Below, in pieces: positions 1,203 to 16,102 of a DNA stretch of 64,000 nucleotides (position 1 is its first letter; the number at the start of each line of letters is the position of its first letter). Under the pieces are notes generated by a model, which did no database searches, was not told where the DNA came from, and worked only from the letters and a program-made list of their open reading frames with translations. Location of the stretch: positions 496,001 through 560,000 of the forward strand of contig NZ_CANMRL010000001.1 in the NCBI RefSeq assembly GCF_947500255.1. Direction: 5' to 3'. Source of the stretch: an uncultured Psychroserpens sp. Lineage in GTDB: Bacteria; Bacteroidota; Bacteroidia; Flavobacteriales; Flavobacteriaceae. A program made the translations under genes and the position numbers.

Positions 1203-1276
1203 ATGCTAAATCTTTAATGTTCTTTGTATAAATTATAGTACAAATTTGCATTATAAAACTCAGTAAATTTGACAAC

Positions 1277-1310
1277 TGTAGATAGGATACCTTTATGTGT
1301 AGATGAATGG
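1277..1310 (-). promoter_or_regulatory. Direct-repeat regulator site 1 (upstream of GT4)
   Basis: The plus strand shows TGTAGATGAATGG at 1298-1310 and a degenerate copy, TGTAGAT, starting at 1277. The two are 21 bp apart. The proximal edge is 75 bp before the glycosyltransferase start. The same element recurs at five other places in the first 15 kb. No clean -7 box at the 49-bp distance is visible here; the nearest candidate is CAAATTTG at 1241-1248. Confidence 0.55.
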
Positions 1311-1325
1311 AAAAAAGCCTTCGAT

Positions 1326-2582
1326 TTAACTTTTTGACGCTTTCAATTTTGAGTTTGATAAAAAGTATAGAATCTGAATAACAAGTAAACATACCATCGC
1401 TAAGATTTGCATATGTACAACTTGTTCAAGGCTGTCATGAAAGAAGATGACCAAAGCCATTTGGAGCATTCCAAAAAGTCCAGAAAAAACCACTGGAATA
1501 TACATATCTAACGACAGATAGTAATACGCAAAGATATTAGAGATGGCAAATAAACCTGTTGCCAGTGCATATTTCCATAGTAAAGGAGCCATGGCTAAAT
1601 AACTATCTCCAAATAACAGATTAATCGCTGTTTCAGGATATAAAGCACAAATAGTAACTATTACTAGTGCAATCATCGCTATGTATCCAACGTATTTAAA
1701 TAAAATTGGTGCAGTAGCCTTTCCTTCTTTTTTAAGTTGAACTACTGTTGGAAGTAATAGCATAACAAACATCCATGCTAAAAAATACACGATACGACCA
1801 ATAAGCGCTAAAGAGGCATATAGTCCTGCTTCATAGGATTCAAAATAGTGTTTAACCAATAAAATGTCACTATTATTTATAATGATTTGAGTGAGTTCAT
1901 AAAAAGCGGTAATCACAAAAAAACGAGTCACTTGTTTTGATGTAGTAGTTTCAATATCAAATGAGGTTTTAAATCGGAAATATCTAAACCTGAATGGTAT
2001 TAAACCAAAACCAAATGAGATCAATATTCCAATAGCGATTACAACAGAAGATTCTATTTGAAATACATATAGCAATCCGAACGTAATAACCAATCGACTT
2101 AACATTTCAGCTTGATACGTAATCGATAAGGGTTTAAATGCTTTTTGACCTTGATATACACCTCGATTAACACTCATTAAAAAGTATATGGGTATCCCAA
2201 GTCCAAAGAGTATAAACATACTTGAAGACGATGTATTGAACACCTGTTGCAACTCATTTGAATATACAATGACTAAAGCGCTTAAAACCACACCAGCACC
2301 AGCAGCTCGTTTGTAGGTTTTAGAGACGAAAGCTGTAAAAGTAAGGTCTTCAAAAACAACCGAGAACTTAGCAGTAACTAATTGAAAGGTCATCGCCACA
2401 AATGACAATACCAATAAAAATGTAATCAAGACTGCCGCATCTGCAAATTGTTCTGGACCTAACATACGACCTAAAATAAGGTTGTATAGATAGTTACCTC
2501 CATTAACTGCTAAAACACTTAGCATAAATAACTGTTCTGGAGACAGTCTTTTGGATTTTAAGACAGATAAATATTGCATCAT
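1326..2582 (-). CDS. Wzx/MATE-like polysaccharide flippase
   Basis: 418 residues with about a dozen hydrophobic segments and few charges, the profile of the polysaccharide-exporter branch of the MVF/MOP superfamily. The first helix region carries GGNYLYNLILGRMLGPEQFADAA, the usual opening of O-antigen and lipid-oligosaccharide flippases (small-residue and Gly-rich, followed by a LG..EF/QFA turn). It should move lipid-linked glycan repeat units across the inner membrane. A TTG three bases upstream is in frame; the ATG at 2582 was preferred. It follows the STAS gene by about 20 bp, so they are cotranscribed. The neighbouring glycosyltransferase and TPR-barrel gene fit a polysaccharide export locus. 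Confidence 0.8.
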   Translation of the reverse strand: MMQYLSVLKSKRLSPEQLFMLSVLAVNGGNYLYNLILGRMLGPEQFADAAVLITFLLVLSFVAMTFQLVTAKFSVVFEDLTFTAFVSKTYKRAAGAGVVLSALVIVYSNELQQVFNTSSSSMFILFGLGIPIYFLMSVNRGVYQGQKAFKPLSITYQAEMLSRLVITFGLLYVFQIESSVVIAIGILISFGFGLIPFRFRYFRFKTSFDIETTTSKQVTRFFVITAFYELTQIIINNSDILLVKHYFESYEAGLYASLALIGRIVYFLAWMFVMLLLPTVVQLKKEGKATAPILFKYVGYIAMIALVIVTICALYPETAINLLFGDSYLAMAPLLWKYALATGLFAISNIFAYYYLSLDMYIPVVFSGLFGMLQMALVIFFHDSLEQVVHMQILAMVCLLVIQILYFLSNSKLKASKS

Positions 2583-2605
2583 CAAGTAGTTTTGTTGTAG
2601 TTTTA

Positions 2606-2884
2606 TTAAGCTGCAAATGAACTCTTATAATCATCATAAATGTCTTTACATCCATATCCAATAACAGAAAACATGTTATTAGATTGTAAGGCTATTGCAA
2701 TTAACGTTTTTAATGCTTCAACACCACATGCATCAATGCATTTTACTTTCTCAATATTTACAGTCACATCTTTTGCTGTATTAATGATATGTTCAAAATG
2801 AATAATGAACGATCTAGCTGTTGTTGCGGTTAAACTTCCGTGTAATTGAAATGCTCCGTTTTCTTCTAAAATTCGTAGTGCCAT
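2606..2884 (-). CDS. STAS-domain protein (anti-anti-sigma type)
   Basis: 92 residues, a single STAS domain: LHGSLTATTARSFI strand-turn-helix, then VTVNIEKVKCIDACGVEALKTLI, matching the conserved loop in which a phosphorylatable Ser/Thr normally follows Asp. Here that place is Asp-Ala-Cys-Gly, so no obvious phosphoacceptor is present at the usual position. That points to a scaffold or binding role rather than classical SpoIIAA-style switching. First gene of the polysaccharide series, with direct-repeat site 2 lying 76-108 bp upstream of its start. Partner unknown; no anti-sigma kinase gene is in the window. Confidence 0.7.
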   Translation of the reverse strand: MALRILEENGAFQLHGSLTATTARSFIIHFEHIINTAKDVTVNIEKVKCIDACGVEALKTLIAIALQSNNMFSVIGYGCKDIYDDYKSSFAA

Positions 2885-2959
2885 AATTGTAATTTTTAAA
2901 TGATTATGTGTTTAAATCTGACGCTAATATCTAAACAAACTCCACGTATACCCTTTTGA

Positions 2960-2992
2960 TTTCGACGGATGGCAGTTTGCTGTAGATGAATG
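2960..2992 (-). promoter_or_regulatory. Direct-repeat regulator site 2 (STAS / TPR-barrel divergent region)
   Basis: TGTAGATGAATG at 2981-2992 and a related TTTCGACGGATGG at 2960-2972, 21 bp apart. Located between the STAS gene (minus, start 2884) and the TPR-barrel gene (plus, start 3038), it could act on either or both. The distance to the STAS start (76 bp) matches the other sites. Confidence 0.55.
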
Positions 2993-3037
2993 AAGTGGTC
3001 TTCGTCCGTAACTTGCAAATAAGCAAATCAAACCGTT

Positions 3038-5101
3038 ATGAAGACTTTAAAATCATTAATATATCCCTTCTTTTTATTACTTGTAATATCTAGTCATGCA
3101 CAAGATATGCAAGACGGATTTACTTATTTAGAAACTGGTCAATATACTAAAGCCGAACTATTTTTTAATACGATATTAAACGACTATCCAAATAATAAAA
3201 CTGCGCGCTTATGTTATGGTAGAGCTGTTGGTCTTAATGGTAAAACGTCAAAGGCAAATACTATCTTTAGCCAATTACTAAAAGATTATCCAGCCGATTT
3301 TGAAGTGAAACTAAATTACGGCGAATCTTTATTATGGAACCAACAATTTCATAAAGCGAAAGCTTACTATAGTAATTTAGTAAAAGAAGCTCCTAAAAGT
3401 TTTCCTACTTTGTTAGGCTATGCTAATACTTTATCAAACCTAAAGGAATACCAACAAGCATTGATCTATATTGACAAGGCTTTAGCGGTATCACCAGGAA
3501 ACCCAAATGCACTTAATTCAAAAAAGTATATCTATCTAGGGTTTGCTTATAAGAAACAGCAAGAACAAGACTATACTGAAGCAGAATTCTTATTAATTAA
3601 AAATTTAGAGTTACTAGGTGACGACAAAGAAACCTTATTGAATCTTGCTAACTTATACCTTATTAAAAATGAGTTAGAGTCTGCCAAAGGCGTCTATAAT
3701 AGATTAGCTAAAAACCCAAATAACAAAATAGAAGCCTTAAACGGTTTGTCTTTAGTAGCACATCTTAATAGTAAAGACAAGAAAGCTTTGCAATTAAGTC
3801 ATAATGCGCAATCACTCATAGAGACCAATTCTGCTCAAACATTAAAACAACAAACGACAGAACGTTATATTCAAGCGCTAATTTGGAATAAAAAATACAA
3901 ACCTGCTCAACGTTTAATTGATACTTTAATGACTGAGTTTGCAAATGCAAATTGGGTATTGGCATTGCGCGCCACATTGAACATTTACAAGAGTAACTTT
4001 AAAAAAAGTCTTGAAGATTATAATAGGATCTTAGCAAACGACAGTACATCCTTTGACGGCAATCTCGGAAAAGCAAATGCCTTGAAAGCCTTGGGACGTT
4101 ATGATGATGCCTATGCCTCAGCAGAAAATACACTAAAGTTTTATGACAATCAAAAAGATGCTGTGAACTTTATAAATGAGCTAAACGCTAATTTTTCTCC
4201 TGCACTTAATTCTAGAGCTGCTTATTCATTTGACAATGGTGAGAATCAAGCATTTGCTTTTCAAACTAGTGTGTCATATCCTCTATCTACTAGATTAAAA
4301 TTGCTCGGACAGTATAACTATAGAACGACCAATAATACCATCACAAAGAATAACGCCTACTCAAATGCAGCAGCTTTTGGTTTATCATATCAATTGTTAG
4401 ACAATCTAATATTTAAAGGAACTATAGGACTTACCTCTGCTAAAACCGAAACAAATGATTACAATCAATTGATTACTGATGTATCAGTACACATCAAACC
4501 TTTTAAACTTCAAAATTTAGATTTAGGTTACAAACGAGGTGTCCAAAGTTTTAATGCAGATTTGTTAGATCGAGAGATTGTGCAAAACAATTATTATGTC
4601 AATTATAATCTTAGTAGCAACTTTAATTTAGGTTGGTTTACGCAATATATCTATACCTCCCAAAATGATGGAAATGCAAGGAATTTACTTTTCACGTCAT
4701 TGTACTATAACATATTGGCTAAACCTTCTTTAAAAGTAGGATTCAACTATCAATATATTACGTTCAAAGAACAGGTGCCAAACATCTATTTTAGTCCCGA
4801 ATCATTTCAAGCCGCTGAAGTATTTCTAAATTTGGTTAAAGATGAGAACATAGCTAAATCAAAACAATGGTTTTACGAACTCACAGCCGCAACAGGACTA
4901 CAATATATAGACAATGGTGAACGCCAAAGCACGTATAGATTCCAAGGGAAGCTAGGTTATAAATTCTCAGAACGCACGATGTTAAACCTATTTGGAACCC
5001 GAAGCAATATTGCATCAGCCACAGCTGCTGGCTTTACTTTTACCGAAATTGGATTGAGGTTTAAATGGGTGTTTGGTGATGGAGGGGTTTTTGGAAAATA
5101 A
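3038..5101 (+). CDS. TPR protein with C-terminal outer-membrane beta-barrel (YaiO-like)
   Basis: 687 residues. A signal peptide (MKTLKSLIYPFFLLLVISSHAQ) is followed by tandem tetratricopeptide repeats to about residue 375 (repeated G.Y..A...F...L..YP and A...Y.KAL..YP..). About 300 residues of alternating aromatic/polar strands end in TEIGLRFKWVFGDGGVFGK, typical of an outer-membrane barrel. This periplasmic-TPR plus barrel layout is that of exopolysaccharide secretion porins (PgaA, BcsC, PelB) and of YaiO-type proteins. Divergent from the STAS-flippase-GT genes across a shared 153-bp regulatory region with direct-repeat site 2. Inferred role: export of the polysaccharide across the outer membrane. 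Confidence 0.75.
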   Translation: MKTLKSLIYPFFLLLVISSHAQDMQDGFTYLETGQYTKAELFFNTILNDYPNNKTARLCYGRAVGLNGKTSKANTIFSQLLKDYPADFEVKLNYGESLLWNQQFHKAKAYYSNLVKEAPKSFPTLLGYANTLSNLKEYQQALIYIDKALAVSPGNPNALNSKKYIYLGFAYKKQQEQDYTEAEFLLIKNLELLGDDKETLLNLANLYLIKNELESAKGVYNRLAKNPNNKIEALNGLSLVAHLNSKDKKALQLSHNAQSLIETNSAQTLKQQTTERYIQALIWNKKYKPAQRLIDTLMTEFANANWVLALRATLNIYKSNFKKSLEDYNRILANDSTSFDGNLGKANALKALGRYDDAYASAENTLKFYDNQKDAVNFINELNANFSPALNSRAAYSFDNGENQAFAFQTSVSYPLSTRLKLLGQYNYRTTNNTITKNNAYSNAAAFGLSYQLLDNLIFKGTIGLTSAKTETNDYNQLITDVSVHIKPFKLQNLDLGYKRGVQSFNADLLDREIVQNNYYVNYNLSSNFNLGWFTQYIYTSQNDGNARNLLFTSLYYNILAKPSLKVGFNYQYITFKEQVPNIYFSPESFQAAEVFLNLVKDENIAKSKQWFYELTAATGLQYIDNGERQSTYRFQGKLGYKFSERTMLNLFGTRSNIASATAAGFTFTEIGLRFKWVFGDGGVFGK

Positions 5102-5491
5102 CTATCTGTTTAAAACATTTGTTAACTTATCTAAAATAGGAATATCTGCCGGAGATAATTTTATGTTCTTTATTTCATTTAATTCTAACCATTCATATTT
5201 ATCATGAGCATTCAGTAAATAGTCTGCTTTTATAAATTTACATTCATAAGCGATTAATTCAATTACAAAATTTTCATATTTATGGATAACAGTTGTAAAG
5301 TGATTTTTTATTTCCACAGACATTGACAACTCCTCTTCGAGTTCTCTTTTTAAAGCATCTTCGGGAAATTCATTAAACTCTAATTTCCCTCCAGGAAATT
5401 CCCAATACCCCCCTAGATGCTTATTTGGGTTTCTTCTACAAAGAAATAATTTGTCATCTCTATAAATAATACCACATGCAACCTTTATCAT
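5102..5491 (-). CDS. Nudix hydrolase (MutT-like)
   Basis: 129 residues. The Nudix box spans residues 35-57: Gly35, Glu41, Arg49-Glu50 and Glu53-Glu54 are in register with GX5EX7REUXEEXGU, but the last Gly is Ser56. Upstream, CGIIYRDDKLFLCRRNPNKHLGGYWEFPGGK is typical of the MutT/CTP-pyrophosphohydrolase branch that removes damaged or modified nucleoside triphosphates. Its start overlaps the end of the EVE-HNH nuclease gene by 4 bp, so the two are translationally coupled. It ends one base after the convergent TPR-barrel gene. The pairing with a modification-dependent nuclease makes a modified-nucleotide substrate plausible, but this is inference. Confidence 0.85.
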   Translation of the reverse strand: MIKVACGIIYRDDKLFLCRRNPNKHLGGYWEFPGGKLEFNEFPEDALKRELEEELSMSVEIKNHFTTVIHKYENFVIELIAYECKFIKADYLLNAHDKYEWLELNEIKNIKLSPADIPILDKLTNVLNR

Positions 5492-6399
5492 AAATCAATT
5501 AATTTTCGTCTATGCCTTTTAAGGTATTTTTTATTTCCAAGAGAGAGGCTTTTAATTCTTTCATTTCCTGTAATACCTAATTTTAAAAATTCTATATTAT
5601 CAAATGAATTAGACAAAACTATCTTTCCGTCATCATCAAATGAAATTAAATATCTATCAAAAAGTGCATCATAAACTGGAGACAATAAAATTCCATTATC
5701 AGCATCCTGTCTCTCTTTATCATTAGCTTCTCTCCAGGGAACAATATGAGAAGCTATCAAAACTTCTTTTAATGAAGCATTAGTTACCGCGCATTTATTT
5801 CCCCATCTTTTTAATATTTGTTGTCTAAATTCACCTTGAACAGTCCTTAATGTAATTAAACCTTTTCTTGTTGTTATCTTAGACAATTTATAATTAAACT
5901 TCTCTTCGTTTATATTATGTTTTATTTCTTTTTGATTTTCAATATATATGTTTCCTAATTTGAATATTGCTTTAGCACTATATGGGTCTAATGCATACAA
6001 ATAACCTTGATTTGCTTTTGCTTTTGGCGGGTTTCCCGTAAAATTAAGAGGTGAATATTTAGGAGGTAAATATTGTTTTATTTTTTCATAAACTTGATTA
6101 ATATCTAAAGGTTTATTAAATAAATGATATTTTGCATCAATCATATAACCTTCATCTTCCCATTGGACATCTACATCGAACTCATCAGGTTGAGCAAATA
6201 GAAAATATTCAGATAAAATAATACAATAACCAACCAAAAACCCTTTTCGGAAATTGAAAACAATATCATTAGGTTTAAGTTTAATCATATTGTTCCAATG
6301 GAAAAACGATTTCCCAGAACTGTTAGATGTTGGAGCCCATAAATATCCTCCTTCTTTTTCTTCTTTATAAGTTTTGCCTTGATTAACCCAATAATACAT
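5488..6399 (-). CDS. EVE-like plus HNH endonuclease (type IV restriction type)
   Basis: 303 residues in two parts. Residues 1 to about 130 (MYYWVNQGKTYKEEKEGGYLW..., NDIVFNFRKGFLVGYCII) resemble EVE/PUA-like domains that read modified bases. Residues about 180-300 form an HNH_2 nuclease: Cys203, a SHIVPW segment with His218, DADNGILLSPVYDALFDRY with Asn235 and Asp248, then ISFDDDGKI. EVE-HNH proteins are known modification-dependent (type IV) restriction enzymes that cut DNA with modified cytosine. No methyltransferase is nearby, consistent with type IV. Coupled by a 4-bp overlap to a Nudix gene. Lysine-rich and lacking a signal peptide, so cytoplasmic. Confidence 0.8.
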   Translation of the reverse strand: MYYWVNQGKTYKEEKEGGYLWAPTSNSSGKSFFHWNNMIKLKPNDIVFNFRKGFLVGYCIILSEYFLFAQPDEFDVDVQWEDEGYMIDAKYHLFNKPLDINQVYEKIKQYLPPKYSPLNFTGNPPKAKANQGYLYALDPYSAKAIFKLGNIYIENQKEIKHNINEEKFNYKLSKITTRKGLITLRTVQGEFRQQILKRWGNKCAVTNASLKEVLIASHIVPWREANDKERQDADNGILLSPVYDALFDRYLISFDDDGKIVLSNSFDNIEFLKLGITGNERIKSLSLGNKKYLKRHRRKLIDL

Positions 6400-6501
6400 T
6401 TGAAAAGTTTCTTAATAGCGGTAATGAAACTCAACTAATAGTGTTGATCTTTTTAATATTTCAATATAAATATAATCAATAAGCTTTAGAAATGGCAAAA
6501 C

Positions 6502-6530
6502 AAAAAAAGGCAAAAGCTTTCGCTTTTGCC
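6502..6530 (-). terminator. Rho-independent terminator of the T9SS protein gene
   Basis: GGCAAAAGC at 6509-6517 pairs with GCTTTTGCC at 6522-6530 around a TTTC loop. On the minus strand it is followed by a run of seven U (plus-strand A at 6502-6508). It sits 63-91 bp past the stop of the secreted protein gene. The same stem core recurs at 9317-9350 and 9500-9533. Confidence 0.85.
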
Positions 6531-6592
6531 TCAATCCAATTCAACATCGCCGCAAATCTCCATGCTTTGTTGAATCTTGAATTAGCCTAGGG

Positions 6593-9190
6593 TTATCTAA
6601 TTATTAATTTCAAGGGATTATATAGTGTGTGTTGACTCAGTATTTTGCAGAAATAGAGTCCTGCACTAAGATTATCTTTTTGTAAAGTAATGTTGTTGCT
6701 TCCAGGTGTTACTTTATGATGACTTTGATAGACTACTTTCCCAAGTTGATCGTAGATCACAAACTGAACAGTCTCTGTTTGGTTAGATGTAAACTGTATG
6801 CTTGTCTCGGCCGTCATTGGATTAGGTATAGCCTTAAGTTTAGTATTCTCTTGCATTATATCTGAGACAGATAAGGTTTCTTGAGAGAAACGTAGATCTT
6901 CTAATGTCATCTCTTTAGTGGTCGTTGTACCATCTAAACTCACCATAGTAAATACCACAGTAATCACATCATCCAAAATAGGATCAACCCCATTGATCGA
7001 TTCAAAACTAGTTATTGGTAACACATAAATATTAACTGTATTAGATAATGTGATACTGGTGTGGTATTGTTCTTCCCAATTAGAAATACCTTGTTTAACT
7101 AAAGTCACTTCTAATAGTCCTGTGCCTTTGGCTTTGAATTTTAAACTATTATAATCTGTAAGATCTACAGGCTTGAATCGTGGCGTTAAAGCTCTATAAG
7201 CAGCAACATAACTACTCGTTGTTGCTTTTAAAACAACATTACGTTCTATTGGAAAATCTGAAATATCAAAAGCATAGTCATTTGGCAAAACAGTATAGGT
7301 ATCAACTGTTGTATCTGGTTGCGAATCATCAATTCCCCAAGGGCCATCAGACATGAATAAGTCGTCTGGTGTAGTGATTCCATCTCCAATTCTGAATCCG
7401 ATATCAAATAGATGTCCAGTTTCTAATTGTAGGTTAGTGATGTAATCTTCGTTAAGGTCTATGGTAGCATTCAGGGCATCAAATTCACTTGTTTCAGTAG
7501 TTCTAAATCCTGCATCAAAAGTCACATTCTCGGTGGCATTTACATTTATAATTTGTAAATCTAAAGCGCCATTATTATAGGTTCCTTTTCTCACAAATAC
7601 GGTTGGAGGAGTCGAATTATTATAGTTTGAAATTGGTTTTTGTGCTTCTAAAAGATTCAATACTTCCAGACCTAATAGATAGAGATCATCTACAGAGTTA
7701 GTCCAAATTTGAAAATTATAGAATGTAACATCTTGTTCATATTGATCAAGATTCCAATGGCTTTCTACAGCGAAATTTTCATCGTTATTAACCACTTTAG
7801 CAGATAAGCTCAATACAAATTCATACGTACCATCTGTGTTTTTGATAATCGATTTGATAAAAGCCTGTTCGTTAATATCAATTGTATTTACCGAGATTAG
7901 CTCGGCACCAAGTAATCGATCACAGATGTATTTGGTATGCTCATAAACGCCATTTTCAGTTTTCAATGCGATAATAGAAGCCGCAGGCATATTATTTTCT
8001 AAGTAGTCTACAGCATAAATTTCTGTGGCATTGGTAATATTTAATAAATCGACAGGTGTTGATTCTATAACCTCATCTTCGTTGATCACATCAAGTGGAA
8101 TAAAATCTTCAAGTGTAAATTCTGAATTTGCATTACGCTCTAAATAGGTATTAGACTTGGTAAGGCGTCTTGCTGTTGTTCTATCAAATCTATAACCCGT
8201 TTTTGCACGATTAAAATTTCTTGCATTGATTTGTTCAGACAGTCTATTATTACTTTCTAATCCACCTTCATTACCTCCAGAAGTAGGAGGTGTGATTACG
8301 GCACATTCGCCATATCCTGAACAAGAAGGATCCTCGCAATCTATGAGTCCATCACCATCATCATCAATGCCATTATCACAAATCTCTTGAAGCACAGGAG
8401 CCGTAGGACAACGTGCGCCATCATTACTAGAGCTCGATGGACCGAAAGCAAATAGATTAGAATCCATCTCTCCATTTTCGACTAAGGTTTGAACATTTTG
8501 AATCACATAAATAGTTCCTGTTTGATTTGCCGATACATAAAAGCGACCATCGGCATCAAAATATACAGCACCATAAGTATAGCTGAGTCCTGACAAAATT
8601 GGAACCTCTCCCAAAGCTTGTACATTTCCGTTAGAAGGATCAATACGATATAATATATTGGTGTTCTTTTCAACAGTGTATAATTGTCCATCTACTGCAT
8701 TAAACGCCCAATCGTGTATGTTGATGTTTTGTGATAAGGTGGCCGTTTCATCGTGCTGTGTATAAGATCCAGAATTGGGGTCGAGATTAATTTTATAATA
8801 CGTGGTTCCACCGCCTTTAAGAAAATACATTCCAGTAGCACTTATACCACCAACGTATCTATTGCTTGTTGGTAATTCATCAATATAATAAGTTGTTGTC
8901 GTAAAGTTTTTACCAATTCGTACAATCGTTTTAGATGGCGATGTAAGTGATCCCCAAATAAAACCATCTGCTGGATTATATGCTGCAGCGTTGATATTTC
9001 CAGAGGTTACATCTGCAGCAACTTGATATGATCCACCAGATGCAAGATCTATAGCATACACATCGTTATACTGAAATAAGTAAGCATTATAATCACAATT
9101 AAATGGGATGTCTTGTGCATTTGAGTTCAAAGTCATAAATATTGTCCCAAATAAGATGAACTGTACTTTTATGTTGTAAAGTTTATTCAT
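6593..9190 (-). CDS. T9SS-secreted multidomain surface protein
   Basis: 865 residues from the ATG at 9190. An in-frame ATG at 9220 lies inside the -7 box TAGTTTTG (9218-9225) and cannot be in the transcript. The signal peptide is MNKLYNIKVQFILFGTIFMTLNSNAQ. The N-terminal third has repeated sheet-like segments (DIPFNCDYNAYLFQYNDVYAID..., AAYNPADGFIWG) of a propeller type, then EICDNGIDDDGDGLIDCED, a calcium-loop cysteine motif common in secreted proteins of this phylum. The middle is beta-rich, and the last 80 residues (KAIPNPMTAETSIQF ... GLYFCKI) form a type A T9SS sorting domain. So it is exported and anchored at or released from the cell surface. The gene has its own promoter with direct-repeat site 3. 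Substrate unknown. Confidence 0.85.
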   Translation of the reverse strand: MNKLYNIKVQFILFGTIFMTLNSNAQDIPFNCDYNAYLFQYNDVYAIDLASGGSYQVAADVTSGNINAAAYNPADGFIWGSLTSPSKTIVRIGKNFTTTTYYIDELPTSNRYVGGISATGMYFLKGGGTTYYKINLDPNSGSYTQHDETATLSQNINIHDWAFNAVDGQLYTVEKNTNILYRIDPSNGNVQALGEVPILSGLSYTYGAVYFDADGRFYVSANQTGTIYVIQNVQTLVENGEMDSNLFAFGPSSSSNDGARCPTAPVLQEICDNGIDDDGDGLIDCEDPSCSGYGECAVITPPTSGGNEGGLESNNRLSEQINARNFNRAKTGYRFDRTTARRLTKSNTYLERNANSEFTLEDFIPLDVINEDEVIESTPVDLLNITNATEIYAVDYLENNMPAASIIALKTENGVYEHTKYICDRLLGAELISVNTIDINEQAFIKSIIKNTDGTYEFVLSLSAKVVNNDENFAVESHWNLDQYEQDVTFYNFQIWTNSVDDLYLLGLEVLNLLEAQKPISNYNNSTPPTVFVRKGTYNNGALDLQIINVNATENVTFDAGFRTTETSEFDALNATIDLNEDYITNLQLETGHLFDIGFRIGDGITTPDDLFMSDGPWGIDDSQPDTTVDTYTVLPNDYAFDISDFPIERNVVLKATTSSYVAAYRALTPRFKPVDLTDYNSLKFKAKGTGLLEVTLVKQGISNWEEQYHTSITLSNTVNIYVLPITSFESINGVDPILDDVITVVFTMVSLDGTTTTKEMTLEDLRFSQETLSVSDIMQENTKLKAIPNPMTAETSIQFTSNQTETVQFVIYDQLGKVVYQSHHKVTPGSNNITLQKDNLSAGLYFCKILSQHTLYNPLKLIIR

Positions 9191-9217
9191 TGTCTTTATT
9201 ATTAAAAGATTATGAGA

Positions 9218-9225
9218 CAAAACTA
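9218..9225 (-). promoter_or_regulatory. -7 box of the T9SS protein gene
   Basis: On the minus strand TAGTTTTG, an exact TAnnTTTG match. No TTG is found 19 nt upstream, so the promoter probably needs an activator. It lies 49 bp downstream of direct-repeat site 3 and shows that translation starts at 9190, not 9220. Confidence 0.65.
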
Positions 9226-9273
9226 TGAGCTTTAAACATCTGCTTTTTTTATTTTCGTTTAGGCGATTGTCGA

Positions 9274-9307
9274 CTAAGTTTAATGACGTTTAACTGTAGA
9301 CGAATTG
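9274..9307 (-). promoter_or_regulatory. Direct-repeat regulator site 3 (T9SS protein gene)
   Basis: A strong half, TGTAGACGAATTG, at 9295-9307 and a weak half, CTAAGTTTAATG, at 9274-9285 (about 6 of 12 positions kept), 21 bp apart. The proximal edge is 49 bp from the -7 box and 84 bp from the start codon. Confidence 0.5.
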
Positions 9308-9316
9308 CACAAAATG

Positions 9317-9350
9317 ATAAAAGGCAAAAGATGTCTCTTTTGCCTTTTAT
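9317..9350 (-). terminator. Perfect 15-bp hairpin with GGCAAAAG core
   Basis: ATAAAAGGCAAAAGA at 9317-9331 pairs perfectly with TCTTTTGCCTTTTAT at 9336-9350 around a TGTC loop. It lies between the upstream short transcript and the secreted-protein promoter, so it probably ends read-through on the minus strand. The U tract is inside the stem rather than after it, which makes it a weaker call than 6502-6530. Confidence 0.6.
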
Positions 9351-9496
9351 CGTCCCATTCTAATCAATTCCTTATTAAGGATTAACCATTTAAAGCGAAT
9401 GTAAAATACTAGTAAAAGAATTAGAAAATTTTTCTTTGGTTAGCAGGAATTAGCATGTGAATAACTATTTCCTTTAGACAAGTGGTATGTATATAC

Positions 9497-9571
9497 AATA
9501 AAGGCAAAAGAATAGAAAATTCTTCTGCCTTTTAATTAGCTATTAATCACAAAACTATTATGTTATGATTC
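9497..9571 (-). ncRNA. Candidate short non-coding RNA, about 75 nt
   Basis: A promoter-like element (direct-repeat site 4, then TATTTTAG at 9577-9584 exactly 49 bp further on) is followed within 50 bp by a hairpin at 9500-9533 with a GGCAAAAG/CTTCTGCC stem and U-rich 3' side. No start codon with a meaningful frame lies between. An exact TAGTTTTG at 9550-9557 could be an alternative -7 box, giving an RNA that reads on to the 9317-9350 hairpin. Predicted from sequence only; it could also just be the 3' trailer of the LytTR gene. Confidence 0.35.
9500..9533 (-). terminator. Hairpin downstream of the LytTR operon
   Basis: AAAGGCAAAAGAAT at 9500-9513 pairs with ATTCTTCTGCCTTT at 9519-9532, with one A/C mismatch. 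It is the first terminator-like structure after the signalling operon (stop at 9669) and would also end the candidate short RNA. Confidence 0.6.
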
Positions 9572-9632
9572 TAATGCTAAAATAGAGACATATCGATTAG
9601 CACTCATTAATTTTCGTTTGATCGAAAACAAA

Positions 9633-9666
9633 GAGCGTTAGAATGCAATTAAGTATAGACGAATGG
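9633..9666 (-). promoter_or_regulatory. Direct-repeat regulator site 4 (before candidate ncRNA)
   Basis: A strong half, TATAGACGAATGG, at 9654-9666, and a weak half ending GAATG at 9641-9645 (20-bp period). It begins right after the LytTR stop codon, so it does not serve that operon. A TATTTTAG box follows 49 bp downstream at 9577-9584. Confidence 0.45.
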
Positions 9667-9668
9667 TT

Positions 9669-10379
9669 TTAGAGTAAATTAAGACGTTTCATTAGCTCTG
9701 GTCGATTTGAACGACTTACAGGAATCACATCTTTTTTTATAAGCACACTATTATCTTCAATATCAATAATCTTATTAACGTTGATAATGAACGAACGGTG
9801 TACTTTAAGAAATAGATCATTGGGCAGCTTTTCTTCTATTTTCTTTAAGGTTGAGTGCACTGTATAGTTTTGATTTTCGGTTTTTACATGAATATAATCA
9901 CCTTTAGCTTCCACCAAATAAATACTTGGAATATCAATTTTAATAAGACGTCTGTCAATATTAACATATAAATCATTACCAGAAGTAGTTTCTACTTTTT
10001 CAGAAGCTGTTGATGCTGCTACAGGCATTGATTTTACTTCGGCTTTTTTTATAGCCTTTTGAAAACGTTCTGGTGTGATAGGTTTTACTAGATAATCTAC
10101 AATACAATCATATTCAAATGCTTGAATAGCAAACTTAGAATCTGAAGTTGTCAAAATTATCTTTGGCGGATTTTTCAGTGTTTCGATAAAATCAAACCCC
10201 GTAAAATCAGGCATATGAATATCTAAAAAAATGAGATCAATATCGTTTTGATTGAGATACTTAATGGCTTGAATTGCATTTGGAAACTCTTCTAATACAT
10301 TTAAGCTGTTTACATTAGAGCATAATTGGGCAATAATTGCTCTTGCTGTAGCTTCATCATCAATAATAATACAATTCAT
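9669..10379 (-). CDS. LytTR-family response regulator
   Basis: 236 residues. The receiver domain spans residues 1-120, with the acidic pair Asp7-Asp8, the phosphoacceptor Asp53 in FLDIHMPDFTGFDFI and a conserved Lys in YLVKPITPERF. A linker leads to a LytTR DNA-binding domain from about 137 (YVNIDRRLIKIDIPSIYLVEAKGDYIHVKT ... LFLKVHRSFIINVNKI ... IPVSRSNRPELMKRL). LytTR regulators bind paired direct repeats about 21-22 bp apart. The repeat seen at six intergenic places nearby has exactly that period, so this protein is the best candidate to bind it. Last gene of the H-NOX signalling operon, 10 bp after the HPt gene. Confidence 0.9.
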   Translation of the reverse strand: MNCIIIDDEATARAIIAQLCSNVNSLNVLEEFPNAIQAIKYLNQNDIDLIFLDIHMPDFTGFDFIETLKNPPKIILTTSDSKFAIQAFEYDCIVDYLVKPITPERFQKAIKKAEVKSMPVAASTASEKVETTSGNDLYVNIDRRLIKIDIPSIYLVEAKGDYIHVKTENQNYTVHSTLKKIEEKLPNDLFLKVHRSFIINVNKIIDIEDNSVLIKKDVIPVSRSNRPELMKRLNLL

Positions 10380-10389
10380 ATGGTACTAA

Positions 10390-10710
10390 TTATAACTGTT
10401 GTAAATAATTAGTTATGGTTATTAAAATAGATTCGAAGTCGTCTTGAAGTTCTGTACTGCCTTCAAGTAAATTGTTTTCGAATGCTACAGCAATCTCATA
10501 ACTTTTCTCAAGCCCTAAAATACTAATTTTATGTTTAAGTTTATGAACATTTTCAGCTGTAAGCGGATAGTTTTTAGCAGCTATATTTTTATAATATACT
10601 TGCTTTTCGTCTGGGAACTCAGCCTTTATGATAGCGATTAACTTTTCTTCAAAAGCGATATCACCACCAGACATACTATGAATGTAGGATAGATTAGGTT
10701 GTTCCATCAT
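10390..10710 (-). CDS. Histidine phosphotransfer (HPt) protein
   Basis: 106 residues, all helical. TAENVHKLKHKISILGLEKSYEIA matches the HPt core H-x-L-K-x5-G-L with His56 as the likely phosphorylated residue. It should carry phosphate from the upstream kinase to a receiver domain, either the LytTR regulator or the single-domain receiver at the head of the operon. Its start overlaps the kinase stop (ATGA). A free-standing HPt beside a kinase that has no receiver of its own suggests a multi-branch relay. Confidence 0.8.
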   Translation of the reverse strand: MMEQPNLSYIHSMSGGDIAFEEKLIAIIKAEFPDEKQVYYKNIAAKNYPLTAENVHKLKHKISILGLEKSYEIAVAFENNLLEGSTELQDDFESILITITNYLQQL

Positions 10711-13181
10711 GATTTTTTTAAAGTAAAATGAAATGTTGTTCCTTTTCCTTTTTCAGATTCTATCCAGATTTCACCTTTAAATAAGTCTATGATTTTTTTA
10801 ACTATCGATAAACCAATTCCAGTAGACTCTTTACTACTATTTAAGGAATGGAATATTTTAAAAATCTTATCATGGTATTTCTTATCGATACCAACACCAT
10901 TATCTTGAATAGAAAATTGGTAGAATGACTTTTTTTCTTCGACATTAATGTTGACCACGCCAGAATCCTTATCATTAAACTTTATGGCATTACTAATTAA
11001 GTTTTGAAACAGTTGTTGTAGTTTGGTTTTATCACCTTTAACTGTTGGCAAAGTGTTTAATACATTTATAGACACATGATCTGGAACATATAAGATTTGT
11101 TTTAACTCATCTATCAAAACATTTAAATCGACCTCTTGCTCTTCTTGAGTTTCAGAACCAATACTTGAATAGGTTAAAATGTCTGAGATAAGTTGCTCCA
11201 TCTTTTCAAGTGTCGTTGCTATTAAATCAAAATTTTGCAAACTAACGTCATCAAACTTACCAGAATTATCTGCTTTTATCCAACTTACTAAGGCTTCAAT
11301 ACTACGTAATGGTGATTTTAAATCATGAGATACGATATGAGCATATTCTTGGAGTTCGTCATTACTTTTTGCTAGCTCTAGTAATAAATGCTCATTCTTA
11401 GATTCGGCCTTTTTACGTTCTCTAATATTGATAGCTGTTCTCAATTGAATTGCTACTAAACTTGCTACACTTTCAAGAGCTTTAGCATGCTCTTTGGTGT
11501 AATAGTTCTTATCTTTATGTTCAGAATCGATAACACCTATAACGCGACCTTCACTTATTATTGGTACAGTTATTTCTGAAAAACGTTGTTTATCATCTAC
11601 AATGTATCTCTTATCTTTTGAGGTGTTCTTAATAATTTCTGAAATTCCAGATTTCACAACACTTCCTACGATGCCTTCTCCAATAGGAACCGTTAATTTG
11701 TTACGAATTTTATTGTCCTCATCTAATTTTTCGCCATATACGGCAATCTGTTCTAAAGTATTATTGTTGTGATCTACTAAATAAATAACACAATCTTCAG
11801 AATCAAGATATTCAGCTATGTTATTGACAATTTCCCAAGCAATTTCATTAACATCTGTTTTTCCTAAAATAGATTTAGTAAGATTATTGATCATATCAAT
11901 AATCAATGTTCGTTCTCTTTCCGAAGTGATATCTTCAATAAGTGCTACCTGAAACTTGATATTTCCATCATTATCCCTTACTGCATTTACATTTGTTTTA
12001 GCCCAAATAACTGAGCCATTTCTCTTTTTATAGCGTTTATTTACTGTGAAGTTGTCAATTTCACCTAAATTCATTTTATCGATATAATACTTTGACTCTG
12101 GATAGTCTTCTTCAAATGAAAGATCTTTTATAGAAAACTCATTTAATTGACTTTCAGAATAACCAAGCAAGTCTTGAAATGTTGCATTGGTTTTGAGAAT
12201 GTCTCCATATTGTGTTAATACAATACCAATTGAAGAATTATTAATAATAACATCCAGTTCGCGTTTTTGTTCCTGTATTAATTCTGTATTACGCTTGGCA
12301 TCGGTGATATCTAAATGGATACCTATAGAACCTGTAACATTTCCGCTGATATCATAATTAGGAGCACCGCTAATAAGCCAAAAACGTTTTTCTCCAGATT
12401 TAGTATTGACCTCAATCTCATAAGAGTTTGATTTTCCTTTTAGACGTTTTTCATTCTCTAAAACAATGATATCTTTATCCTTATCTACAGGAAATAATTG
12501 ACCCCCTACTTGTCCAATTAACTCATCCTTGGAATATCCTGAAATTTCTGTGAATTGCTGGTTTACAAATTGAATTTCATCTTCATTATTAACCTCTACT
12601 AATCCAAGGTTCATATTATCTATAATACTCATGTATTTCTGCCGCTCAGCTTCTATACTTTTTTGATAATCACTTTCAACTGTAATATCTCTAACAATAC
12701 CTTGAGCTCCTACAGCAATTCCTTTTTCATAAATTACACTAGCATTAATGTGTGCCAATTTTTTTTCTCCAGTCTTTGTAACAATTTTTACTTTAAAATT
12801 AGTAATAACCCCTTTTTCCATTAAAGTCTTAAAAGACGTAGCCACTTTCTCAATTTCTTTTGGATCTACTAATTCCATAAGATTACTATTCGTTTTAACA
12901 TCATTAAAACCTAGCAATTTAACTGCTGCATCATTCATTTTTAGAATGTTTCCCCAGAGGTCCATAATCACATATGCATCGACAATATTTTCAAAAACAC
13001 CTTGTAGCTGAGAATTAGTTTTATCGTATAACGACATCAACTCTGCATGAGATTCTTCAAGCTTTTTATTCACTTGATATAATTCGGCAGATTTTTCTTC
13101 TAGGATTTTTTCAGCTTGCTTTCTTGCTGCTCGTTCTCTAGCTAAAGCACGTTGTAGTATGTCCAGCTGCTCTTGACTCAT
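10707..13181 (-). CDS. Multi-PAS/GAF sensor histidine kinase
   Basis: 824 residues, no membrane segment, so soluble. A coiled coil covers about residues 5-55, then three PAS domains (about 60-175, 180-295, 305-425, each with its PAC-like end), a GAF domain (430-580, with TVPIISEGRVIGVIDSEHKD), a HisKA helix with the H-box YAHIVSHDLKSPLRS and a HATPase domain with NAIKF (N box), DNGVGID (G1) and TGIGLSIVKKII (G2). The start overlaps the H-NOX stop by one base (TAATG). In known systems a kinase encoded next to H-NOX is inhibited or activated by the NO-bound sensor; that is the natural inference here. The PAS and GAF ligands cannot be told. Confidence 0.9.
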   Translation of the reverse strand: MSQEQLDILQRALARERAARKQAEKILEEKSAELYQVNKKLEESHAELMSLYDKTNSQLQGVFENIVDAYVIMDLWGNILKMNDAAVKLLGFNDVKTNSNLMELVDPKEIEKVATSFKTLMEKGVITNFKVKIVTKTGEKKLAHINASVIYEKGIAVGAQGIVRDITVESDYQKSIEAERQKYMSIIDNMNLGLVEVNNEDEIQFVNQQFTEISGYSKDELIGQVGGQLFPVDKDKDIIVLENEKRLKGKSNSYEIEVNTKSGEKRFWLISGAPNYDISGNVTGSIGIHLDITDAKRNTELIQEQKRELDVIINNSSIGIVLTQYGDILKTNATFQDLLGYSESQLNEFSIKDLSFEEDYPESKYYIDKMNLGEIDNFTVNKRYKKRNGSVIWAKTNVNAVRDNDGNIKFQVALIEDITSERERTLIIDMINNLTKSILGKTDVNEIAWEIVNNIAEYLDSEDCVIYLVDHNNNTLEQIAVYGEKLDEDNKIRNKLTVPIGEGIVGSVVKSGISEIIKNTSKDKRYIVDDKQRFSEITVPIISEGRVIGVIDSEHKDKNYYTKEHAKALESVASLVAIQLRTAINIRERKKAESKNEHLLLELAKSNDELQEYAHIVSHDLKSPLRSIEALVSWIKADNSGKFDDVSLQNFDLIATTLEKMEQLISDILTYSSIGSETQEEQEVDLNVLIDELKQILYVPDHVSINVLNTLPTVKGDKTKLQQLFQNLISNAIKFNDKDSGVVNINVEEKKSFYQFSIQDNGVGIDKKYHDKIFKIFHSLNSSKESTGIGLSIVKKIIDLFKGEIWIESEKGKGTTFHFTLKKS

Positions 13182-13720
13182 TAATTTCTATTGATTAGAA
13201 ACTTAACCTCTGTTCCATCTGGTTTAATCTTCTCCAATTGTATAGTTGCCGTACTATTAAAATGTTCAAAAGTCTTGTTCATTAACCCTAATCCAAAATG
13301 ATGCATCGCTCTACTAGACTTATAAATCATAATTAATGAATCGTCTGTTTTTTCTAACACTTCAAAAGTGGGTAACTCGGCATCAGGATAAATTTTTCTT
13401 ACCTCAACATGAATGTGGTTTTCGATGGAAGCTAGCATATCTATAGGGTCGCTATAAGTGGCCAAAAGCCCTGGATAACTATCTTCCAAAACACTAAAAA
13501 AATGCTCTGCATACACTAATAATAAGTCATCTATGCTGATATCTGTTTTAGCACTTAGGTGTTGCAATAATTGCAGCATTTCTGAAAATTTATAGGTTCC
13601 AACTGATGTATAAACACCATTAGATTCAAGATTAGAATTCGAAATAATATAATCAACCATCTCTAATCCAAATTTATCTTCAACCAATTCTAAAAATTCT
13701 GTAAATACGATACCTTTCAT
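13181..13720 (-). CDS. H-NOX heme nitric-oxide sensor
   Basis: 179 residues, the standard length of a stand-alone H-NOX. The segment MLASIENHIHVEVRKIYPDAELPTF carries the proximal heme ligand (His104, in NHIH), and YKSSR at 133-137 is the invariant Y-x-S-x-R heme-propionate motif. H-NOX proteins bind NO (some also O2) at ferrous heme and regulate a partner kinase or cyclic-di-GMP enzyme, often controlling biofilm formation. Here the partner is the soluble PAS/GAF kinase that follows by TAATG overlap. The distal-pocket residues cannot be judged reliably by eye, so O2 binding is not excluded. Confidence 0.9.
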   Translation of the reverse strand: MKGIVFTEFLELVEDKFGLEMVDYIISNSNLESNGVYTSVGTYKFSEMLQLLQHLSAKTDISIDDLLLVYAEHFFSVLEDSYPGLLATYSDPIDMLASIENHIHVEVRKIYPDAELPTFEVLEKTDDSLIMIYKSSRAMHHFGLGLMNKTFEHFNSTATIQLEKIKPDGTEVKFLINRN

Positions 13721-14134
13721 TTATGCTTTAATTAATTCATTAATACTCCAATACGCTAATAGTTTTTCAATTTTTGAAACATAATCCTCATACTTTAAAG
13801 GCTTTAGCACATAACCTGCAATACCTATTCTATAACATTCTAACAAATCTTTTTGGTTATTTGATGTTGTTAATATTATTGTTGGAATATATTTTAAAGT
13901 ATCATCATTTTTAAGAATTCCTAAAAACTCTAAGCCATTAATTTTTGGCATGTTTAAATCTAATAAAATTATGTGAGGTAAACTTTGTTCTTCTTTTAAA
14001 ATCCTTAACGCTTCTTCACCATTATTAGCTTCTATGATATCATGTTTGATATCAAGTGTTGAAACCGTTCTATTGAGTTTCATAATCTCAATAGTATCGT
14101 CTTCAATTAACAATACTTTTAATTTCTTTTCCAT
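13721..14134 (-). CDS. Single-domain CheY-like receiver
   Basis: 137 residues, receiver only: Glu11-Asp12-Asp13, phosphoacceptor Asp59 in ILLDLNMPKINGLEFL, Thr in ILTTSNNQKD and Lys in YVLKPLKYEDY. There is no output domain, so it acts by protein contact or as a phosphate shuttle or sink. First gene of the signalling operon, and it abuts the H-NOX start. Its promoter region has the best-preserved pair of direct repeats in the window (site 5), which suggests the operon is controlled by its own LytTR product. Confidence 0.9.
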   Translation of the reverse strand: MEKKLKVLLIEDDTIEIMKLNRTVSTLDIKHDIIEANNGEEALRILKEEQSLPHIILLDLNMPKINGLEFLGILKNDDTLKYIPTIILTTSNNQKDLLECYRIGIAGYVLKPLKYEDYVSKIEKLLAYWSINELIKA

Positions 14135-14213
14135 GAGGGTGTACTTATTGTAGATTGTGAAATTACTACAATAGTGACTAATGATGATTTTACTTCGTTT
14201 AATTTAAATTTAG

Positions 14214-14247
14214 TGTAGACGAATGACAGTTAAGTGTAGACGAATGG
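14214..14247 (-). promoter_or_regulatory. Direct-repeat regulator site 5 (signalling operon)
   Basis: Two identical 14-mers AGTGTAGACGAATG (12-mer core at 14214-14225 and 14235-14246) exactly 21 bp apart, the cleanest copy in the window. The proximal edge is 80 bp before the receiver-gene start. A TAATTTCA at 14158-14165 sits at the 49-bp distance but matches the -7 consensus only partly. Confidence 0.7.
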
Positions 14248-14255
14248 TAATTACA

Positions 14256-14552
14256 TTATAGTTTTTGATGATTGATTAAGTTAATCGTATTGATTTGAGA
14301 ATCGTATTTAATTCTTTCTAATTCTTGCAAGAAAGTCAAAGAGTAGCTCTTTTCATGGTTTTTAGCTATATGCATTTCAAAATAACTGATAAATTCTAAC
14401 TGCTTTAAACTGGCTCGTAATTGTGTTCTCGTCGTCATCTTGTCCTGGTTTTTATCCAAACTTGTTTTACTTGTATTTTCAACTGATCTATAATCAGAAA
14501 AAAAGTATAGGAATTTGGACAGTAGTTTTTGGGCGGAGGGAATCATGGGCAT
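14256..14552 (-). CDS. Small protein of unknown function
   Basis: 98 residues, no signal peptide or membrane segment, helical and charged, with a Leu-rich first part (AQKLLSKFLYFF) and TRTQLRASLKQLEFISYFEMHIAKNHEKSYSLTFLQELERI. No family recognised. It has an exact -7 box (TAGATTTG, 14573-14580) and direct-repeat site 6, so it is probably a member of the same regulon. It lies just upstream of the signalling operon, separated by 121 bp. The well-placed promoter supports it being a real gene. Confidence 0.6.
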   Translation of the reverse strand: MPMIPSAQKLLSKFLYFFSDYRSVENTSKTSLDKNQDKMTTRTQLRASLKQLEFISYFEMHIAKNHEKSYSLTFLQELERIKYDSQINTINLINHQKL

Positions 14553-14572
14553 CTTCTTTTGTTAATATGTAA

Positions 14573-14580
14573 CAAATCTA
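14573..14580 (-). promoter_or_regulatory. -7 box of the 98-residue protein gene
   Basis: Minus-strand TAGATTTG, an exact TAnnTTTG. No TTG is found at the -33 spacing. It is 49 bp downstream of direct-repeat site 6 and about 20 bp before the start codon. Confidence 0.65.
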
Positions 14581-14628
14581 AAAGGACTACCCTTTGACTA
14601 TAAAACTATTCTTTAGATGAGTTAATTC

Positions 14629-14661
14629 AATAGATGAGTGGCAAATAAGTGTAGATGAATG
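14629..14661 (-). promoter_or_regulatory. Direct-repeat regulator site 6 (98-residue protein)
   Basis: TGTAGATGAATG at 14650-14661 and AATAGATGAGTG at 14629-14640, 21 bp apart. A third related element, TTTAGATGAGTT, lies at 14612-14623. The proximal edge is 49 bp from the -7 box. Confidence 0.6.
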
Positions 14662-14666
14662 AGAAA

Positions 14667-15029
14667 CTAGTCTAACTCCTGACGTTTTTTTTTAGGCAAA
14701 CCTTTAACCACCATATCATAAGAATGATCGATTAATTTGGTCAAGAGTTTTGGTGAAAGTTCTCCTGTATGGATATATACGCTATTCCATTGTTGCTTGT
14801 GCATGTGGTAACCTGGCTTGATACTCTCATAGGTCTCTCTTAACTCAATAGCATATTCTGGATCACATTTGAGATTAATAAACCCTTCTCCGCTCTCCCA
14901 TTTTTTTAAAGAAGCTAAGGCAAACATTTTCCCTAATACCTTGAACACCAAAACATCTTCATCGAAAGGAAAATGCTCGGTTACTGCCTTTTTATTCATG
15001 CAATAATTTCTATAGTCTTCTATATTCAT
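14667..15029 (-). CDS. MmcQ/YjbR family protein
   Basis: 120 residues with the family pattern: MNIEDYRNYCMNKKAVTEHFPFDEDVLVFKVLGKMFAL at the start, INLKCDPE in the middle, GYHMHKQQWNSVYI and a final LIDHSYDMVVKGLPKKKR. The fold resembles a CyaY-like double-wing DNA-binding domain, but the cellular role is unsettled. Its start overlaps the GNAT gene stop by 4 bp, and that gene in turn overlaps the DUF4230 gene, giving a tight three-gene operon. Confidence 0.85.
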   Translation of the reverse strand: MNIEDYRNYCMNKKAVTEHFPFDEDVLVFKVLGKMFALASLKKWESGEGFINLKCDPEYAIELRETYESIKPGYHMHKQQWNSVYIHTGELSPKLLTKLIDHSYDMVVKGLPKKKRQELD

Positions 15030-15427
15030 TTTAATAAGCGTTCCATGACTTTTTCAGGATGTTTTAACTCGGTATATCCAAACTGATGATATAATTTATG
15101 TGCATCTGAAGTTTTTAGCATCCATATGTGACAAGACTTCAATTTTGGCTCCTTATGAACCGTTTCCATAAGTTGTTTAGAATACCCCTTACCTCGATAT
15201 TCTGGAAGTATAAACACATCCATTAGGTATGCAAAAACCACATAATCTGTTGCTATACGAGCAAAACCAATTTGTTTATTTTCATGATATACTCCAAAAC
15301 ACAAACAGTGTTCAATAGAGGTTTTCACTTCTTCTAGTGTACGTCCTTTAGCCCAATAGGTTTCGGTTAAAAACTCGTGAATTAATTTGATGTCTAGACG
15401 TGTTTTATCGGTAGATATATCTATCAC
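15026..15427 (-). CDS. GNAT-family N-acetyltransferase
   Basis: 133 residues. The acetyl-CoA-binding segment VFILPEYRGKGYSKQLMETV fits the Q/R-x-x-G-x-G/A motif A of GNAT enzymes, followed by the C-terminal WMLKTSDAHKLYHQFGYTELKHPEKVM, usual in small-molecule or amino-acid acetyltransferases. Substrate unknown. Overlaps both neighbours by 4 bp. Confidence 0.85.
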   Translation of the reverse strand: MIDISTDKTRLDIKLIHEFLTETYWAKGRTLEEVKTSIEHCLCFGVYHENKQIGFARIATDYVVFAYLMDVFILPEYRGKGYSKQLMETVHKEPKLKSCHIWMLKTSDAHKLYHQFGYTELKHPEKVMERLLK

Positions 15428-16035: not shown

Positions 16036-16102
16036 AGTTAGTTTTTAATAACTGCTTTCAAATGTCGCGCCATAGTTAATGAACGTATTCAAAATCTAAC
16101 AC

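Follow-up and report, generated by a model that had tools for sequence, protein, structure and literature searches.

What reads the short direct-repeat element that recurs between the genes around a haem-NO-binding (H-NOX) sensor operon in Psychroserpens, and which genes would it control? We analyzed a stretch of 64,000 nucleotides from an uncultured Psychroserpens sp. (contig NZ_CANMRL010000001.1, positions 496,001 to 560,000; hereafter the window), for which a preliminary description had listed six intergenic copies of the element and proposed a regulon of the LytTR-type response regulator encoded there. The element has the gene-strand consensus CCATTCRTC(T/G)ACA(C/G)TWA with a repeat period of 21 bp and reads CATTCRTCTACA on the minus strand of the window; its half-site, CCATTCRTC(T/G)ACA, is present in two or three copies per promoter. 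Comparative evidence supports the proposal. As the best joint explanation of the data below, the elements are very probably tandem LytTR boxes of an H-NOX-operon regulon, with binding by the encoded regulator predicted.

All six places (1298, 2981, 9295, 9654, 14214/14235 and 14650) lie between the main genes in a single orientation, each facing the next minus-strand gene. A partner half follows 21 bp further on, within the 20-21 bp first reported; it is perfect at 14214/14235, where the 14-mer duplicate spanning 14214-14247 is exact (CATTCGTCTACACT), and weaker at the other sites. A weight matrix recovered seven minus-strand half-sites in the window with scores of 23.7-29.2. A cut-off of 15 gave no match on the plus strand of the window or in reversed controls; lowering it to 11 brought in one plus-strand match (48872) and one control match. 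The matrix had been trained on 64 sites including these seven, so that the window scan is no independent test; held-out loci and a family-wide pattern scan served that purpose.

Within the 4.0-Mb genome from which the window comes, the exact 12-mer occurs seven times, six of them in the 20.6 kb around the operon (C1:490072-510661), compared with one copy in the reversed control. With one mismatch allowed, 42 matches were found versus 34 in the control. Ten of the 42 share one strand and fall in C1:483546-510661; the remaining 32 are close to the control level. Of the ten, the match at C1:483546 is placed within a 527-aa frame and probably represents a chance occurrence. At up to two mismatches the window count was not significant (18 found, 12.45 expected, a number reached by 7 of 100 shuffles). 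The case thus rests on the near-exact sites and on the relatives. Of the exact copies outside the clusters in the genomes scanned, 17 loci were read as potential further targets and rejected: none had a good second half together with a correctly spaced -7 box, 16 of them lay in open frames of at least 157 aa and the last (L085) in a 49-aa frame.

The relatives revealed a fixed geometry between the element and the flavobacterial -7 box (TAnnTTTG). The box starts 60-62 bp (short class) or 81-83 bp (long class) from the first half-site, and these two spacing classes are 21 bp apart. In a first set of 59 sites, from which a match within a coding frame and the second halves of five tandem pairs had been left out, TTTG stood at +64 to +66 in 30 and at +84 to +86 in 14. 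The held-out set comprised 73 named lytTR loci (7 of 80 were dropped as training genomes). Every one of the 73 had at least one site; on the lytTR strand the matrix gave 305 sites, compared with 17 on the opposite strand and six in each of two reversed controls. The partner-half score peaked at 21 bp, in keeping with the direct repeats of the LytTR family. With tandem halves counted separately, TAnnTTTG started at +60 to +62 in 70 cases, at +81 to +83 in 52 and elsewhere within 160 bp in 14. Taking tandem pairs once left 59 short-class and 52 long-class promoters. A CGA was located at +28 in 40 and at +29 in 17 of the short-class promoters (57/59), and at +49 in 40 of the 52 long-class promoters versus none of the 59 short-class ones. 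These positions indicate that the promoter-proximal element keeps a distance of about 32 bp to the -7 box and that the long class has one extra period added upstream. Only one of the 59 short-class promoters and three of the 52 long-class ones had a TTG in the -33 region, taken as the stretch from -29 to -19 before the -7 box; on loci outside the training set, this bears out the earlier remark that the contact is missing. The 49-bp spacing to the -7 box described for three window sites needs revision: it is found at 9295 and 14650 and corresponds to the long class when the distance is counted from the second half, hence to one of two classes a period apart, and at 9654 only a weak -7 box (TATTTTAG) is in place. 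In the window's own genome (G000) the short-class -7 pattern recovered only two promoters; strict scans thus undercount, since a longer spacing or a degenerate -7 box keeps the other sites from matching.

This geometry bears directly on whether the copies are a dispersed repetitive or mobile element, such as integron-like attachment sites or repeats of the repetitive extragenic palindromic (REP) or miniature inverted-repeat transposable element (MITE) type, spread in a hot region with no regulatory role. Such an origin would agree with the common direction of the window sites, with three of them following a stop codon by no more than about 30 bp, and with the clustering of the own-genome sites in about 20 kb. 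It is at odds with a fixed -7 distance in two classes one period apart, and with the position of start codons, which lie 30-250 bp downstream (mostly 85-125 bp) of 304 of the 339 matches in the 80 loci. Across genera, the sites also precede the same orthologous genes, namely the REC operon, the genes for a protein secreted by the type IX secretion system (T9SS), for STAS/flippase proteins and for a GT4 glycosyltransferase, and a REC-GT2 fusion gene left of the window, and in G249 an exopolysaccharide cluster distant from the operon has sites as well. A mobile element is therefore exceedingly improbable; on promoter geometry and orthologous placement we reject this interpretation, integron sites included, no search aimed at mobile-element genes having been part of the analysis.

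The presumed binding protein of the boxes is a response regulator of 236 aa (9669-10379, minus strand) with a REC and a LytTR domain (PF04397, 4.6e-22; PF00072, 2.4e-19). Both domains score above the curated cut-offs (LytTR, 78.5 bits vs 22.6; REC, 70 bits vs 30.2). The best NCBIfam model is BtsR (NF008677), at 126.1 bits against a cut-off of 246, so the regulator is not a BtsR equivalog; the best 60 of 155 matches in a PDB sequence search were mainly REC chains with a few LytTR chains. Close matches to the protein (53-94% identity) occur in 19 of 56 other genomes, counting a truncated copy in G018; 11 of these 19 belong to the same genus, of which 22 genomes were searched. One relative carries a tandem pair of close regulator gene copies (G175:C1:1376298-1378238).

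Presence of the element follows that of this gene. In 20 regions (G000 and the 19 relatives) oriented by lytTR, matches with at most one mismatch numbered 67 on the lytTR strand versus 4 on the opposite strand, and 16 of the 20 regions had at least one lytTR-strand match; none was seen in G016, G018, G031 and G035, of which G016 and G018 have weaker sites by the matrix. Within the genus, the exact motif occurs 39 times in 12 genomes with the LytTR gene versus 11 times in 11 genomes lacking it. A strict pattern, CATTCRTCKACA-N51..55-TTTG, gave 143 matches in 77 of 299 Flavobacteriaceae genomes compared with 5 in the reversed control. Together with the clustering of exact 12-mers near the operon, this is the outcome of the genome and family scan that had been suggested as a check. 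Of the 299 genomes, 113 encode the LytTR gene (E at most 1e-62), including 70 of the 77 with the pattern but only 43 of the 222 others (Fisher p ~7e-30, overstated since the genomes are related). Genomes with the gene hold 136 of the 143 matches; 109 are found within 35 kb of the gene, without exception on the same strand as the gene. A LytTR regulon is thus supported by co-occurrence with the gene, by linkage and by agreement in strand.

The same data make it very unlikely that some other, unlinked DNA-binding protein occupies the boxes and that the LytTR protein is just a neighbour. Binding of the boxes by the LytTR protein is a prediction from sequence, which leaves room for such a protein. 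Against it, LytTR is the sole Pfam DNA-binding domain among the five operon proteins, the direct-repeat period fits LytTR proteins, and co-occurrence, linkage and strand agreement all concern this particular lytTR gene. Moreover, ten loci (each at most 3.7 kb) around more distant LytTR genes (37-43% identical) contain no site at a cut-off of 11.

Several observations count against assigning the boxes to this regulator throughout. The distant-LytTR control loci total only 35.6 kb, and relatedness of the genomes means that p-values overstate their independence. TTTG is at neither spacing in 15 of the 59 first-set sites, several of which have near-matches by eye, and the 17 opposite-strand matches in the held-out loci have been given above. 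The one candidate in G031, of score 19, has no -7 box, and G016 shows only its weaker sites. No strict-pattern match was found in 43 of the 113 lytTR genomes, and 34 of the 143 matches lie away from lytTR; some of the latter mark unlinked or draft-split clusters, as judged from those read (G249, G188 and two of three in G182). In G035, a genome from a different family, the box is absent both from the closest LytTR gene and from the LytTR operon linked to H-NOX, so it is not common to every H-NOX/LytTR operon. That operon (C1:2670322-2673876, L221; another family of the order) comprises H-NOX, kinase, REC, unknown and LytTR genes, and the H-NOX-LytTR pairing may accordingly be wider than the box.

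Whether a bound regulator would activate or repress can be approached from the position of the arrays. Their ends lie some 30 bp ahead of the -7 box, and this position together with the missing -33 TTG suits activator-dependent promoters. The opposite model, in which LytTR represses and phosphorylation relieves repression, has a precedent in HnoC of Shewanella oneidensis, described in the available text of one source as a repressor relieved by phosphorylation (PMC8738867). For the present system we hold repression to be quite improbable on the grounds of array position and the absent -33 TTG, a judgement from position only; by the same reasoning the promoters are probably activated.

The arrays differ in class and in the genes behind them. 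The array before the REC/H-NOX operon (14193-14246, minus strand) has exact half-sites at 14235-14246 and 14214-14225, a weak third half with CGAAG at 14193-14204, and a degenerate -7 box (TTTC at +84); relatives also have arrays upstream of REC. The array before the gene for a 98-aa small protein (14256-14552, minus strand; no Pfam match) covers 14608-14661 (minus strand), with half-sites at 14650-14661 and 14629-14640. Its third half at 14608-14619 is doubtful, having AGAAT in place of the expected CGAAA, and its -7 box, TAGATTTG at 14573-14580, is a TAnnTTTG at +81. The small protein thus has its own LytTR-box promoter, and relatives of 44-60% identity stand in the same place in five genomes (G005, G006, G007, G018 and G019). 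Before the T9SS-cargo gene, an array at 9253-9306 (minus strand) has a third half with CGAAA and the -7 box TAGTTTTG at +81 (9218-9225). The 865-aa product (6593-9190, minus strand) combines DUF6923 with a Por_Secre_tail; the ATG at 9190 is preferred as the start because the TTG at 9220 lies inside the promoter.

The two remaining boxes have two half-sites each and precede exopolysaccharide genes. The first (2960-2992, minus strand) has a proximal half with CGAAA and a -7-like GATATTAG near +61, and the same placement is seen in orthologs. It faces the genes for a 92-aa STAS-domain protein (2606-2884, minus strand; 21.8 bits, just under the cut-off of 22.6) and a polysaccharide flippase (1326-2585, minus strand; Polysacc_synt_3). 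The divergent region is shared with the gene for a 687-aa TPR protein (3038-5101, plus strand), for which we infer a C-terminal outer-membrane barrel; the PgaA and Slam TPR models score below cut-off. The second box (1277-1309, minus strand), with TTTG at +65 (1241-1244), precedes a GT4 glycosyltransferase gene (Glycos_transf_1; 1-1202, minus strand) that extends beyond the left window edge (L130:10970-12202). Left of the window, the REC-GT2 glycosyltransferase fusion gene (L130:3803-4987, minus strand) has a tandem LytTR box in front. The genes linked to the element in the preliminary description (flippase and glycosyltransferase, T9SS protein, H-NOX operon, small protein and a putative RNA) were all found. 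Identification of the exopolysaccharide genes as a Pel cluster was considered and dropped, as no PelF or PelG model was among the matches listed. G022 has three sites at a different exopolysaccharide cluster, with genes for UDP-glucose dehydrogenase, a sugar transferase, and outer-membrane and AAA components. A cluster like it in G249 lies about 2 Mb along the contig from the H-NOX/LytTR operon and has five sites scoring at least 20, three of them with a -7 box at +60; control of this unlinked cluster would act in trans. Opposite-strand genes of the exopolysaccharide cluster left of the window (L130:5166-10992, plus strand) encode a protein of 1029 aa for which Pfam gave no match, one that is Ig/invasin-like with a score below cut-off, and one that is GH2-like. 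Between the T9SS and exopolysaccharide genes, positions 5102-6399 (minus strand) hold genes for an HNH_2-domain protein and a NUDIX-like protein, the latter named from its sequence; this pair is not labelled at that place in the compared relatives.

Right after the lytTR stop codon, an array at 9612-9665 (minus strand) has a third half with CGAAA; the weak -7 box mentioned above, at +81 (9577-9584), would drive a candidate LytTR-controlled small RNA of about 75 nucleotides (9500-9575, minus strand, ends approximate) that finishes in a terminator, GGCAGAAG...CTTTTGCC followed by T. A box array with a short terminator-ended stretch after the lytTR stop is present in 18 of 86 sequences (the 80 named loci and six G genomes, one of these being the same genome as L144). 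One of 19 flagged candidates, L142, was rejected as a coding gene. L169 and L170 are alike over the part compared, an GATTAATAGC-like motif is common to many candidates, and inspection by eye suggests paired changes in the terminator stem. Rfam gave no match in window positions 1-20000.

The operon itself suggests what the regulator might respond to. By Pfam, its gene order is REC, H-NOX, PAS/GAF histidine kinase, Hpt and LytTR. The first gene (13721-14134, minus strand) encodes a single-domain response regulator of 137 aa (PF00072, 6.5e-21), followed by a 179-aa H-NOX sensor (13181-13720, minus strand; PF07700, 3e-39) with the kinase gene adjacent. A YKSSR in the H-NOX translation is what we take to be a YxSxR-like motif. 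The kinase (824 aa; 10707-13181, minus strand) has three PAS stretches, GAF, HisKA and HATPase_c, and the stand-alone Hpt-like protein (106 aa; 10390-10710, minus strand) was assigned from its position and a PF01627 match (E 4.6e-4) of 20.8 bits, below the curated cut-off of 24.6.

Following the contiguous operon upstream from lytTR in the 80 loci, with labels taken from BLAST to proteins of G000, G019 and G022 and some walks stopping at contig ends or gaps, we found both H-NOX and FIST in 46, only H-NOX in 23, only FIST in 2 and neither of them in 9. H-NOX is thus present in 69, FIST (NosP-type) in 48 and either or both in 71 of the 80. The FIST protein of G019 (379 aa) has PF08495 (6.1e-42) and PF10442 (3.8e-36) with a kinase gene next to it; NosP is a FIST protein according to the accessible text of PMC8738867, and the FIST protein of the relatives would be a NosP-type sensor with predicted haem and nitric oxide (NO) binding. 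A domain search found no FIST domain in the window's own genome. In several relatives, two kinases flanking a FIST (NosP-type) gene take the place of the single kinase at 10707-13181, and the one kinase without a FIST domain in the window genome suggests loss or fusion. Separately, G009 encodes four tandem FIST-domain stretches (G009:C37:158131-162498) in a genome with neither H-NOX nor a close match to the window's regulator.

Across 34 genomes, H-NOX was found in 19, which are 19 of the 20 with a close LytTR match and none of the 14 without; the H-NOX of G035, one of the 19, sits beside a different LytTR gene in the boxless operon. This tracking and the FIST genes argue against a real LytTR regulon whose natural input is something other than NO, with H-NOX sensing oxygen or redox state or the PAS/GAF kinase another ligand. 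We consider such an input rather unlikely, while recognizing what speaks for it: the PAS and GAF domains of the kinase and the nine operons with neither sensor. Further points against a dedicated NO input are that G027 keeps lytTR and sites without H-NOX and that H-NOX is on another contig in G001 and G033. These three exceptions indicate that NO need not be the only input.

The half-site presumably differs from that of AgrA, as the preliminary description held when it called the repeat a departure from the AgrA/LytTR consensus. The sequence is not unlike every known LytTR site, and that part of the claim fails: by core sequence only, the commonest core here, CCATTCGTC, is one base off the 9-bp AlgR core CCGTTCGTC of Pseudomonas aeruginosa given in the available text of PMC4064291, and the exact AlgR core occurs in two G033 sites. 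According to the same text, LytTR regulators commonly bind two imperfect direct repeats, about 12 bp apart (PMC4064291). Paired repeats are known for AgrA, VirR, PlnC/PlnD and Escherichia coli BtsR; the third half-site in one promoter class distinguishes the present system from such regulons. Likeness to AlgZ/FimS-AlgR of P. aeruginosa extends to a LytTR-domain response regulator over an exopolysaccharide, alginate. AlgR sites, as far as that text describes them, are not necessarily direct repeats and are sometimes far from the start (PMC4064291), whereas here 21-bp arrays stand at a fixed promoter distance and are coupled to an H-NOX/Hpt operon.

With the H-NOX networks of Shewanella and Vibrio, as covered by the accessible text of PMC8738867, the operon shares H-NOX acting on a histidine kinase and a second NO sensor of the FIST/NosP type, and HnoC of S. 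oneidensis likewise feeds back on its own operon. Output in those networks is mainly cyclic di-GMP (c-di-GMP) turnover or quorum sensing (PMC8738867). In contrast, the regulator here has boxes at exopolysaccharide genes, and GGDEF (PF00990) and EAL (PF00563) domains were found in none of the 12 genomes tested, with the same searches matching in 8 and 6 of 14 controls. A literature search, with most subscription papers outside its reach, returned no report that we recognized as connecting a LytTR regulon in Bacteroidota to H-NOX or NosP.

We propose that NO on H-NOX, and in relatives also on the NosP-type FIST protein, would change kinase activity, and that phosphate would pass to LytTR through Hpt, perhaps with the single REC protein as an intermediate. 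The LytTR regulator would bind the half-sites head to tail, the promoter-proximal half, often of the CGAAA type, lying about 32 bp before the -7 box, and would stand in for the missing -33 contact at promoters that are probably activated. In this way it would control its own operon, of which it is the last gene, as well as the T9SS-secreted protein, the small RNA and the exopolysaccharide genes. The relay order, the activation and the direction of the NO effect in this scheme are what we infer from gene content and promoter position.

H-NOX and NosP link NO to biofilms mainly via c-di-GMP and quorum sensing, in so far as the accessible text of PMC8738867 represents them. Here, in genomes free of GGDEF and EAL (12 of 12 tested), a DNA motif readable from each genome connects probable NO-sensor operons to exopolysaccharide genes, forming what is probably a c-di-GMP-independent, NO-responsive exopolysaccharide regulon. 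On a slight balance of probability, we favour a c-di-GMP-free NO switch shared by much of the Flavobacteriaceae (113 of 299 genomes with the regulator), in which H-NOX and NosP would converge via Hpt on one LytTR activator. Acting at phased promoters with two or three boxes, this activator would directly control matrix polysaccharide, T9SS cargo and a small RNA. The analysis yields a candidate regulon for an NO sensor in Bacteroidota and a defined LytTR box with exact promoter geometry, for genera including Psychroserpens, Winogradskyella, Algibacter, Lacinutrix, Olleya and Aquimarina.

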